DNA from: Moorella sp. E308F
Lineage (GTDB): Bacteria; Bacillota; DSM-521; Neomoorellales; Neomoorellaceae
Assembly: GCF_006538365.1 (NCBI RefSeq)
Contig: NZ_BJKN01000002.1
Span: forward strand, 1,068,411 to 1,132,410
DNA: 64,000 nucleotides
Direction of reading: 5' to 3'
In this document: piece by piece, positions 41,823 to 45,471 of the stretch
Numbering within the stretch: position 1 is the stretch's first letter
Layout: each line of letters begins with the position of its first letter
Notes under the pieces: model-generated
Told to the model about the DNA's origin: nothing
The model's input: only the letters and a program-made list of their open reading frames with translations
Databases searched by the model: none
Position numbers and translations under genes: made by a program

Positions 41823-43226
41823 TTAAAAATACAAATCCCTTTCGCCGCTAGCGATTCGCTCCAGGCGGCGTTCGGTTTCGGCCCGGATGGCAGCACTAGG
41901 TATCTGGGCCAGGTGCTCCCTGATAGCCGCTTCTCCCGCTTCCCGGGTGGCCGGTCCGGCGTAATCCAGCAGGTATTCTTTAAAGGTCAGGATGGCGTTG
42001 GGCTGGCATACATGCTGGATCTCGCCGGTTTTGGCCAGGGCCATAAAACGGTCCCCTGTACGCCCGCGGCGATAACAGGCCGTGCAGTAGCTGGGTAGAT
42101 AACCACGCTGGCACAGGTCGCGGATTACTTCATCTGGGTGCCGGTGGTCGCCGATTTCAAACTGGGGCACATCGTCGCTGTTTTCAGCATAGTGGCGGCT
42201 GTATCCGCCGACACCGGTGCAGGAGCCGGCGCTGAGCTGGGAAATTCCGAGGGCCAGGAGTTCGGCCCGGAGTTCCGGCGTCTCGCGCGTAGAAATGATC
42301 ATGCCGGTATAGGGCACGGCCAAACGAATGATGGCCACCAGCTTCTTGAAATCGTCATCGTTAACCAGATATGGGAAGTTTTCCAAACTAATGCCATACG
42401 CCGGCCGCAGGCGAGGTACGGAGATGGTATGCGGCCCGACGCCGAAGGTTTGCTCCAGATGGCGGGCATGGTAGAGCAGGCCCATCACCTCAAATTTATA
42501 ATCGTAAAGACCGAAGAGGACCCCCAGGCCAACGTCGTCGATGCCACCTTCCATGGCCCGGTCCATAGCGGTGGTGTGCCAGTCATAATCAGCTTTGGGA
42601 CCGCTGGGATGCATGTAGGCGTAAGTCGGCCGGTGGTAGGTTTCCTGGAAAAGAATATAGGTGCCGATGCCGGCTTCTTTGAGCCGGCGGTAAGCATCCA
42701 CAGTAGTGGCGGCAATGTTGACGTTCACCCGGCGGATATTACCATTGGCCTCGGTAATATGATAGACGCGGTTGATAACATCCAGAACGTAGTCCAGGGG
42801 GCAATGGACCGGGTCTTCCCCCGCTTCCAGGGCCAGGCGTTTATGCCCCAGGGACTCTAAAATGCGTACCTCCCGCTCCAGTTCCGCCGGTTCCAGGCGA
42901 CGGCGTTCAAATTTGTTTTCCCGCCGGTAGCCGCAGTAACGGCAGTTGTTAACGCAGTAGTCGCTGAAGTAAAGGGGAGCAAAGAGGACCATGCGCCGAC
43001 CGTAAATCTTTTCTTTTATTTCCCGGGCGGCGGCAAACATCTGCCGGCGCACGCCCGTATCGTCGTTCTGGAGCAAAACGGCTACTTCGTAGGGTTCCAG
43101 TCCCTTCGCTTCCCGCGCCTTTGCGACGATGCGGGCAGCCTCGTCCCTCGTTGCCCGCTTGGCTTCTTCCAGGTAGCCTTCTATCTCTTCATGCTTAATA
43201 AAGTCGGCACGATAACCGTACTGCAT
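41823..43226 (-). CDS. hydG: [FeFe]-hydrogenase maturase HydG (radical SAM tyrosine lyase)
   Basis: 467 residues. The radical-SAM triad is in CVNNCRYCGYRR. The C-terminal second-cluster motif is CTACYRRGRTGDRF followed by VCQPNAI (CX2CX22C), which separates HydG from ThiH. HydG splits tyrosine and builds the CO/CN-bearing iron synthon of the H-cluster. ATG 43226 follows GGGG, and a longer ATG at 43241 lacks a ribosome site. It lies 130 bases after hydE on the same strand. HydF, the third maturase, is not in this window. Confidence 0.95.
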   Translation of the reverse strand: MQYGYRADFIKHEEIEGYLEEAKRATRDEAARIVAKAREAKGLEPYEVAVLLQNDDTGVRRQMFAAAREIKEKIYGRRMVLFAPLYFSDYCVNNCRYCGYRRENKFERRRLEPAELEREVRILESLGHKRLALEAGEDPVHCPLDYVLDVINRVYHITEANGNIRRVNVNIAATTVDAYRRLKEAGIGTYILFQETYHRPTYAYMHPSGPKADYDWHTTAMDRAMEGGIDDVGLGVLFGLYDYKFEVMGLLYHARHLEQTFGVGPHTISVPRLRPAYGISLENFPYLVNDDDFKKLVAIIRLAVPYTGMIISTRETPELRAELLALGISQLSAGSCTGVGGYSRHYAENSDDVPQFEIGDHRHPDEVIRDLCQRGYLPSYCTACYRRGRTGDRFMALAKTGEIQHVCQPNAILTFKEYLLDYAGPATREAGEAAIREHLAQIPSAAIRAETERRLERIASGERDLYF

Positions 43227-43370
43227 GGAAAATTCCCCCATTCCGTTTAATGATACTTAAACGTTTAACCGGACCTTCTCTGCTTTTACTCCTCTTTCAC
43301 ATCGTTTTACGAACGTATATTAAATAAAGCCGTGCTGATATCTTTTCCAATTCGTGGCTACCGCCACCCA

Positions 43371-44423
43371 CTAAGCCGGGAGGGGCTTCAAGGTGTGTCC
43401 CGGTCCCCGCCCCAGCCGCCGCCCTAAAGCGCGCACCATGCCTTCCAGGCAGTAGCGGCAGTCTTCCGGGCCTTCGTTGACGCAAATCTTATTGGGGTAG
43501 ATTTGATAATTGGACCGGTATTTGGTCGGCGTCAGGTTAGGCATAATGACGTTCGCCCCCCGTTGCAGGGCGAGCTGGCGGCCATTGGGGGCCAGTGTGC
43601 CCACCGCGGTAGTTGCCGGCAAATGGGCGTATGGTATGACCAGTCGAGCGGTAGCTACCACCCGGTAAGTGAGGTCCAGGCTCCCCGCCGGTTCCCCGCC
43701 CAGGGGCGTTGCCGGATGGGGGATAAAGGGGCCCAAACCTGCCATTTCCACGTCCAGCTGCCGCAGGAGGATTAAATCATCAGCCAGGTCCTCCAGGGTC
43801 TGACCCGGCAGGCCGATAATGTTGCCGGAACCTACCTGGTAGCCCAGCTCCCGCAGCCACTGGAGGCACTGGAGGCGCTCCTCCCAGCTCATACCGGGGT
43901 GGAGGCGGGCGTAGAGGTTTTCATTGGCCGTCTCATGTTTCAGGAGGTAGCGGTCGGCCCCGGCCTCCCGCCACATAGCGTATTCATCCCTCGTCCTCTC
44001 CCCGGCGCATAAAGTTACGGCTACCCCCAGCTTTTTTATTTCCCTGATTATTCCTGCCAGCATCGGGCCTGTATACCAGGGGTCTTCCCCCGACTGGAGG
44101 ACGATGGTCCCATAACCCAGCTCCGCCCCGCGCCTGGCGGCAGCAACGATATCTTCTGGCATTAAGCGGTACCGCTGCAATTTCACATTGTCAGCCCGCA
44201 GGCCGCAGTAATAACAGTGGCGGCGGCAGTAATTGGAGAACTCGATGACGCCGCGCAGGTGGACTTCCTCCCCGGCTACCCGGGCGCGGACGCCGTCCGC
44301 CAGCCGGTAGAGGGCTTCTTCTTCCGCCCCGGTGTCTGCGGCCAGCAGGTTCATGATGTCTGCCTTGGTGAGTTCTTCTCCGGCAGCGGCCCGCTCCAGG
44401 CTGCAGGCAAATTCCCGTCGCAC
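43371..44423 (-). CDS. hydE: [FeFe]-hydrogenase maturase HydE (radical SAM)
   Basis: 350 residues. FSNYCRRHCYYCGLR is the CX3CX2C radical-SAM motif, LQSGEDPWYT and GNIIGLPGQTLEDLADDL are typical, and a C-terminal CVNEGPEDCRYCLEGM supplies the optional second cluster. HydE acts in forming the dithiomethylamine/iron moiety of the H-cluster. GTG 44423 has GGAGG eight bases upstream. Frames further upstream would overrun this ribosome site. It forms an operon with the TM1266-type gene before and hydG after. Confidence 0.95.
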   Translation of the reverse strand: MRREFACSLERAAAGEELTKADIMNLLAADTGAEEEALYRLADGVRARVAGEEVHLRGVIEFSNYCRRHCYYCGLRADNVKLQRYRLMPEDIVAAARRGAELGYGTIVLQSGEDPWYTGPMLAGIIREIKKLGVAVTLCAGERTRDEYAMWREAGADRYLLKHETANENLYARLHPGMSWEERLQCLQWLRELGYQVGSGNIIGLPGQTLEDLADDLILLRQLDVEMAGLGPFIPHPATPLGGEPAGSLDLTYRVVATARLVIPYAHLPATTAVGTLAPNGRQLALQRGANVIMPNLTPTKYRSNYQIYPNKICVNEGPEDCRYCLEGMVRALGRRLGRGPGHTLKPLPA

Positions 44424-44494
44424 GGCAATAACCTCCTTCCATTTCCAACCAGTATAACCTAATTTTCGGCCTCCCCGCCGCCGGGACAGGCAGC

Positions 44495-44749
44495 TCACTT
44501 TCCCTTTCCTGTCAGGGCCGCCCGCACTTTTACCCCGGGGAGGCTGCCCAGCTTTCCCGTCAGGGCGCCGATGGTATCGGTGGTCCCGTCTACAATCAAA
44601 GCTATAACGGCCACGCCCCGTTCCCGGTAGGGAATACCCATGCGGCCGACGATGCAGTTGCCGTAATCGCTTAGGATGGCATTAACCCGGGCGGCAGTAT
44701 GTTCGCGATCCTCAATTACTATCCCCACTACTCCCAGGCGGTTTTCCAT
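44495..44749 (-). CDS. TM1266-type iron-only hydrogenase system regulator
   Basis: 84 residues with an ACT/NikR-like fold: LGVVGIVIEDREHTAARVNA, CIVGRMGIPYRERGVAVIAL, IGALTGKLGSLPGVKVRA. This family (TM1266) travels with [FeFe]-hydrogenase genes and is named as a putative regulator, although no DNA-binding part is visible. ATG 44749 is seven bases after GGAG; the ribosome site itself is duplicated (GGAGTATGA twice). It is the first full gene of the maturation operon. Confidence 0.88.
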   Translation of the reverse strand: MENRLGVVGIVIEDREHTAARVNAILSDYGNCIVGRMGIPYRERGVAVIALIVDGTTDTIGALTGKLGSLPGVKVRAALTGKGK

Positions 44750-44816
44750 CGTCATACTCCTTCATACTCCTTCCACGAACAAGGCTGCACCGGATTATTA
44801 TCGTTGCAGCTAAACC

Positions 44817-44855
44817 AAAAAACGCCTGCCAGCTTGAATACTAAGCCGGCAAGCG
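44817..44855 (-). terminator. Leader terminator/attenuator of the TM1266-hydE-hydG operon
   Basis: A 13-pair stem, CGCTTGCCGGCTT with AAGCTGGCAGGCG (minus strand, 44855-44823), closes a seven-base loop and is followed by six T. It lies 68 bases before the TM1266 start, with no minus-strand gene between it and pfkA, so it is a leader terminator rather than the end of an upstream operon. Confidence 0.8.
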
Positions 44856-44873
44856 TGAAAAATTACTTCCCAT
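44841..44873 (-). CDS. 10-residue leader peptide (MGSNFSRLPA)
   Basis: AAGGAGG sits six bases before the ATG. The last four codons and the stop lie within the 5' arm and loop of the terminator stem, so a ribosome finishing this peptide would melt the terminator. No run of codons for a single amino acid is seen, so what it would measure is unclear. Confidence 0.5.
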   Translation of the reverse strand: MGSNFSRLPA

Positions 44874-44983
44874 ACAATTCCTCCTTCCCTAAGGTTCAGG
44901 TAATCCCTCACCGCAGGATAATTTTTGCCGCCCTCCCGCACCGGTCCTTAAACCCGTACGGTCAGGTTTGTTCTAGATCTATT

Positions 44984-45001
44984 TTGTACGATTATGAACA
45001 A
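44984..45001 (-). promoter_or_regulatory. Possible weak Rex-like site and promoter of the maturation operon
   Basis: The minus strand reads TTGTTCATAATCGTACAA, 18 bases with TTGT/ACAA ends like Rex sites but a poor right half. It overlaps a promoter-like TTGCAT (about 45008-45003) and TACAAA. Rex control is only a suggestion. Confidence 0.3.
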
Positions 45002-45102
45002 AAATGCAAGTTAATTTTTCAGCCCGGACCTGGAAGGAATTTTTTACCCGGCGGAGAAATTATATCCTTTAAAAGATAACCTGAGAAAGGAAAGTGAATT
45101 AT

Positions 45103-45471
45103 ATGGAAGAAATCTTAAAACAGCTCCTTCAGGGACAGGAAGAAATCAAAAAGACATTACAACAGCATACCGAAATTCTGCAGCAGCATACTGAAATTCT
45201 ACAGCAGCATACCGAAACTCTGCAGCAGCACAGCAAACAGTTAGACTATCTGGAACAAAGAATGATTAAAATCGAAAACCGCCTGGATAACGAACTGCTG
45301 CCGAAAATCAACGTCCTGTTTGACGCTTTTGAGCTGCGGGGGGATGAGATTGCCAAACTCCAAAAACACCTGGATGACAGGCTTGATATAATCGCCCTGG
45401 ATGTTAATTACCTGCTGGGCAAAACCGCCCGCCAGGAAACAGCTATCCTGGAATTAAGACGGGCTAAGTAA
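45103..45471 (+). CDS. Coiled-coil protein with heptad repeats, unknown function
   Basis: 122 residues, charged and helical throughout. QQHTEIL-type heptads repeat at about 21-50, then LDYLEQRMIKIENRLDNELL and LDDRLDIIALDVNYLLGKTA continue the coil. No membrane segment or known domain. The ATG at 45103 has AGGA at wide spacing (11); the GTG at 45094 is too close to it, so the start is uncertain. It resembles the coiled coil at 60826, also repeat-built, but lacks that protein's membrane helix. Confidence 0.65.
   Translation: MEEILKQLLQGQEEIKKTLQQHTEILQQHTEILQQHTETLQQHSKQLDYLEQRMIKIENRLDNELLPKINVLFDAFELRGDEIAKLQKHLDDRLDIIALDVNYLLGKTARQETAILELRRAK
45160..45240 (+). repeat. 21-bp in-frame tandem repeats
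   Basis: Three near-identical 21-base units (CAACAGCATACCGAAATTCT type) start at 45160, 45181 and 45202, with a decayed fourth at 45223. Each adds one seven-residue turn of the coiled coil, so copy-number change keeps frame. Confidence 0.85.

Follow-up and report, generated by a model that had tools for sequence, protein, structure and literature searches.

A candidate riboswitch-like leader RNA with an intrinsic terminator ahead of [FeFe]-hydrogenase maturation genes in Moorella and other Bacillota

Among described regulators, transcription-terminating riboswitches (c-di-AMP/ydaO, SAM and guanine) come close to the leader RNA presented here: an aptamer-like fold lies near the point where the transcript is predicted to begin, the intrinsic terminator behind it would in many lineages compete with an antiterminator, and the whole stands at the head of functionally related operons. 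Our leader differs from them in that it matches no family of Rfam 15, is built from short repeated CCUGA...RAGGG hairpins and is only predicted to bind a ligand. Tandem-aptamer riboswitches (glycine, NAD+-I) likewise consist of two similar consecutive domains and, like the leader RNA, have single-domain forms, which for the leader RNA are found in some lineages; they are unrelated to it in sequence and structure. Leader-peptide attenuators (trp, his and leu, and the ilvB-II uORF of Corynebacterium, PMC10272879) resemble it in having a short ORF with a Shine-Dalgarno sequence that overlaps a terminator. In contrast to these, the present leader has no regulatory codon run, its ORF is not conserved beyond Moorella, the time window is short, and it is the RNA structure that forms the conserved unit. 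The likeness to protein-dependent attenuators (TRAP, HutP) is that the repeated RNA hairpins could be bound, and the terminator thereby controlled, by the product of a gene in the operon or close to it. The protein in question, TM1266, is not known to bind RNA.

The maturation of [FeFe]-hydrogenase by HydE, HydF and HydG is biochemically well studied. The literature that we searched contained no RNA-level control of these three proteins and, in agreement with a preliminary description of the locus, no attenuator of hydrogenase maturation. Within a partial coverage of the literature, publications on hydrogenase in combination with riboswitches or leader RNAs, and on TM1266, reported no such RNA, and the riboswitch and non-coding RNA papers checked mentioned neither hydrogenase nor the maturases searched for. 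We regard the leader RNA as a previously uncatalogued class within a familiar type of regulator, namely a candidate riboswitch-like leader.

The locus lies in a stretch of 64,000 nucleotides from Moorella sp. E308F (hereafter the window, to which all positions refer unless another locus is named), and its features are collected in Table 1. The preliminary description had placed a leader peptide and an overlapping terminator of 13 pairs and six U before a TM1266-hydE-hydG operon. The position ahead of these genes was confirmed, as the family profile scores of all three exceed their respective curated cut-offs; TM1266, for which 2NZC is a solved relative, is present in 10 of the 11 genomes of the genus. 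The terminator with its six U (T at 44822-44817, the first one paired) is also real, but its stem comprises 14 pairs rather than 13 (44856-44843 with 44835-44822, minus strand), and it folds with z = -4.2 relative to dinucleotide shuffles. Thus the features flagged earlier do exist; what had been overlooked is a conserved two-domain structured RNA at 44966-44887 (minus strand), directly upstream of the ORF. Further upstream, a block TTGC...CAAAATAG is common to the ten Moorella leaders of the alignment, and transcription is predicted to start near 44974 on the minus strand, so that the conserved RNA would form the 5' end of the transcript. Ahead of the TM1266 start, AAGGAGTATGA occurs in tandem (44773-44752, minus strand), giving two overlapping sets of ribosome binding site and ATG as well as an alternative short frame, MKEYDDGKPPGSSGDSN. 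Elsewhere in the same genome, a weak TM1266-like paralogue (31 bits; locus L064, contig C2 681621-681839) is found behind a gene with a rubrerythrin-like product.

Table 1. Features of the leader and of the genes behind it, with positions in the window
Feature	Position	Strand	Basis
Promoter-like block TTGCAT-N17-CAAAAT	44981..45009	-	sequence; putative promoter function
RNA domain D1, hairpin CCUGA-[CCGUAC.GGU...ACC.GUGCGG]-GAGGG	44931..44966	-	covariation
D1-D2 linker CGGCAAAAAUUAU	44918..44930	-	predicted fold
RNA domain D2, CCUGCGGUGAGGGAUUACCUGAACCUUAGGG, three short helices with G-N/A internal loops between them	44887..44917	-	covariance model and covariation
AAGGAGG, Shine-Dalgarno-like, immediately 3' of D2	44880..44886	-	sequence
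Micro-ORF MGSNFSRLPA*	44841..44873	-	sequence, Moorella alignment
Intrinsic terminator, 14 pairs, 7-nt loop, U run	44817..44856	-	sequence and folding
TM1266 family protein (TIGR03959), putative regulator of iron-only hydrogenase system	44495..44755	-	116 bits
hydE, radical SAM maturase	43371..44498	-	374 bits
hydG, radical SAM maturase	41823..43241	-	644 bits

The best conserved part of the aligned Moorella leaders is situated upstream of the ORF and consists of ACCUGACCG...CGGGAGGG, the linker and CCUGCGGURAGGG..ACCUGARCCU.AGGG. In general form, D1 is a hairpin CCUGA-helix-RAGGG and D2 reads CCU-GM-NNNN-A-AGG-loop-CCU-GA-NNNN-A-AGGG with a covarying central helix; some lineages carry single-domain forms (for example L037 and L039). 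A simple pattern for the motif matched 54 of 152 upstream regions, as against 0-2 of 152 after shuffling. The covariance model R1, built from 21 leaders, recovered held-out leaders where they were expected, at E-values of 1e-9 to 1e-5. The window leader (44970-44880) scored 68.8 bits with R1 and 62.8 bits with R2, and was the only credible copy in its own genome in both searches; a second match there (18.2 bits, E 0.58) was judged to be due to chance. Weak model matches at L191, L193-L196, L219, L222 and L223, which lie in coding sequence or repeats, were judged false. No Rfam 15 family matched the window leader at gathering or permissive thresholds (E up to 10), and 12 related loci gave nothing credible with E-values up to 5. 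The sole Rfam match within the window is a c-di-AMP riboswitch (RF00379, 12145-12271, plus strand, 88.9 bits).

Strong covariation in two sets of leaders shows that the structure is conserved. In D1, 8-9 of the 11 pairs change on both sides. The refined alignment of 48 leaders from the first set, which had been inspected before a register for D2's central helix was chosen, contained 83.4% paired cells and 146 double-change cells, compared to 55.3 +/- 6.1 in shuffles and 41-58 when the partner was slid by 1-3 columns. The second set of 47 leaders came from a run of R2 on another class, and most of its members had not been used in building R2; here 83.2% of the cells were paired, with 129 double changes against 42.2 +/- 6.2 in shuffles and 24-76 in slid controls. 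An intrinsic terminator follows the RNA in 46 of the 47 leaders of the second set and in nearly all leaders of the first.

The RNA with its terminator also precedes TM1266 in many other Bacillota, including Desulfofundulus australicus (L019) and Desulfovirgula thermocuniculi (L025), and among 398 genomes of the phylum the matches at E <= 1.4e-4 were located at maturation or related loci. It heads the maturation operon whichever gene leads: besides TM1266, the first gene may be hydG (assigned from sequence at L188-L190, and from Pfam as well as sequence at L217 and L221) or hydE (L224), and at L226 the RNA is followed by aspartase and then hydF. At L218 an ABC transporter stands between the RNA and TM1266-hydE. 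In the other class sampled, the RNA occurred in 55 of 113 genomes; at 41 loci examined with R2, TM1266 was the first of these genes at 36, hydG at one and an unknown gene at one, and at three (L255, L258 and L263) the RNA preceded an ABC transporter with no adjoining hyd genes. The RNA-linked transporter belongs to the aliphatic sulfonate family (TIGR01728). Some TM1266 operons in which another gene precedes TM1266 had no RNA copy immediately upstream. At L218 and L225 the frame of the permease begins at the Shine-Dalgarno sequence of the leader and continues through the terminator. One further copy (L267 122-221, 31.5 bits) lies ahead of an uncharacterised protein, MLHVDFKEALLERTREARKQIEAYEH... 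In principle the stem found here could be no more than a fixed terminator or a 5' UTR structure that regulates nothing; however, the covarying structure is retained across many families and in several different gene orders, each time with a terminator directly behind it, which makes such an explanation most improbable. A conserved folded RNA with a terminator heads the maturation genes in many anaerobic bacteria, so it is probably this leader RNA itself that turns their expression on and off.

In the class sampled, TM1266 was present in all 55 RNA-bearing genomes and could thus be the binder of the leader. Among genomes bearing HydG, 53 had both RNA and TM1266, 25 had TM1266 only, none had the RNA only and 10 had neither (Fisher p = 4e-5, a figure that still includes shared ancestry). 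These counts, the annotation of TM1266 as a putative regulator and the paired, pseudo-symmetric hairpins, which would fit an oligomeric protein, would agree with a reading in which TM1266 binds the leader, stabilises D2 and autoregulates its own operon in the manner of TRAP or HutP. However, operon linkage and shared ancestry alone would produce the same co-occurrence, the RNA went undetected in 25 genomes that have HydG and TM1266, and we know of no RNA-binding activity in the TM1266 family. We consider autoregulation by TM1266 a possible but rather unlikely reading.

The preliminary description had focused on the micro-ORF, with the argument that translation to its stop would block folding of the terminator. 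Its ten codons (ATG GGA AGT AAT TTT TCA CGC TTG CCG GCT TAG, 44873-44841) begin six bases behind AAGGAGG, and the ORF is real; its TAG takes up the final base of the terminator 5' arm and two bases at the start of the loop. The AAGGAGG itself directly abuts the closing stem of the structured element, and leaders without an ORF likewise conserve the adjacent G-rich 3' strand of D2. The other aligned Moorella leaders have an ORF of 4-5 codons (encoding MRGYF, MRVNF, MRLGV, MKVTV, MSTRL, MDAS or MDDS) with a stop (TAA, TAG or TGA) at the base of the terminator. The end of these ORFs corresponds to TCA at 44858-44856 in the window strain, where a change from TAA to TCA has lengthened the ORF to ten codons. 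As claimed earlier, there is no run of codons for a single amino acid, and a comparison of MGSNFSRLPA, MRGYF, MRLGV, MKVTV, MSTRL and MDAS revealed no regulatory codon run in common.

Ribosomes on the micro-ORF might occlude the terminator 5' arm and so permit readthrough, as in leader-peptide attenuation. That the ORFs of the other aligned Moorella leaders end at the terminator base would agree with this, as would the same placement at L017, L029, L138 and L260 and the frequency of an ATG at Shine-Dalgarno distance behind D2, found in 27 of 54 first-set leaders against 17.7 +/- 2.8 expected with Moorella included. When Moorella was left out, however, the enrichment became marginal (31 of 78 leaders against 25.3 +/- 3.3, with 16 of 300 shuffles as high), and those four loci are the only ones among 31 such ORFs outside Moorella to end at the stem base. 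It should be underlined that conservation of the stop is weak evidence, because a T followed by two purines that pair with the U tract reads as a stop in three out of four cases; we accordingly rejected a stop codon at the stem base as a sign of translation, since it is mostly due to these purines. That stop is, moreover, lost in the window, no codon run is present, and the distance from the ATG to the last U is only 57 nt, which, judged by the known footprints of RNA polymerase and ribosome, would leave little time for ribosome initiation. Nor is the ORF kept wherever RNA and terminator occur, many such leaders having no ATG; the conserved unit is RNA plus terminator, and another, predicted pairing would account for readthrough in many lineages. 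The attenuation logic proposed earlier thus stands in so far as the leader is attenuator-like with a real terminator, and micro-ORF and stem are kept within Moorella, but leader translation as the main mechanism is unsupported and appears improbable. The marginal enrichment, the few stem-base ends and the G-rich stretch, which belongs to the D2 closing stem or directly adjoins it and persists without an ORF, lead us to view the ORF as a feature of Moorella and not as the mechanism; behind D2 it would play an accessory part or be fortuitous.

The pairing that may replace translation in this role joins the 5' strand of D2 to the 5' arm and loop of the terminator. Relative to shuffles, it reached a mean z of -1.54 over 93 leaders, and was significant (p <= 0.05) in 43 of them where about 5 were expected. 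Its mean z fell below -1 in 12 of 29 groups, and roughly half of the groups showed no such pairing. Examples are UGCGCCAAAG with CUUUGGCGCA in L073 and UGCGAAAAAGGG with CCCUUUUAUCGCA in L069. In predicted folds of 12 leaders, transcripts ending at the terminator loop formed the antiterminator in eight cases, and in the complete transcript the D2 5' strand was paired elsewhere in 11. Since the same D2 strand is shared, aptamer plus terminator and antiterminator are predicted to exclude one another in many lineages. A terminating riboswitch or a protein-dependent attenuator would work by this logic, and we read the RNA as a candidate for one of the two. Within Moorella the pairing is strong in L002 (z = -3.5) and L003 (-3.0) and weak in the window (-0.78). 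In the predicted fold of the window leader, CGGCAA of the linker (44930-44925) can instead pair with UUGCCG (44852-44847), which lies in the 5' arm of the terminator, and this is the likely antiterminator in this strain. Pairing between the D2 3' strand and the terminator 5' arm was rejected as a general antiterminator (mean z 0.03), being significant only in L154, L224, L039, L025 and L091. In L154 and L224 it is strong (z about -3.6), a different antiterminator register with the same aptamer.

Taken together, we find it likely that the leader is a cis-regulatory RNA controlling the entry of transcription into the [FeFe]-hydrogenase maturation operon, with D1 and D2 as the sensing part and the terminator and antiterminator as the switch. 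D1 and D2 would fold right after the predicted transcription start. If D2 were stabilised by a ligand, be it a metabolite, an ion or a protein, the terminator would be free to form and the operon would be off; if not, the D2 5' strand (in this strain the D1-D2 linker) would pair with the terminator 5' arm and RNA polymerase would read through. We infer that something binds the RNA and that the switch operates in this strain; its direction, off when D2 is stabilised, is probable as judged by the order of the structures alone. More tentatively, the RNA may belong to a new class of riboswitches that respond to some compound or ion involved in H-cluster assembly and control both maturation across Bacillota and a sulfonate-type importer, with a tiny ORF overlaid in Moorella. 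An organosulfur or nitrogen precursor, or Fe(II), would for example be candidates, and the importer may bring in the sensed compound.

A leader RNA shared in this way would give a direct handle on what cells monitor while building the H-cluster, and the occurrence of this RNA ahead of a transporter points towards a candidate compound. A partnership between RNA and TM1266 could likewise give a role to a protein long annotated as a 'putative regulator'. The leader RNA is short and amenable to in-line probing and reporter constructs. Head to head with it in the window lies a small gene with QQHTEILQQHTEILQQHTETLQQH repeats (45094-45471, plus strand) that belongs to no NCBIfam family.
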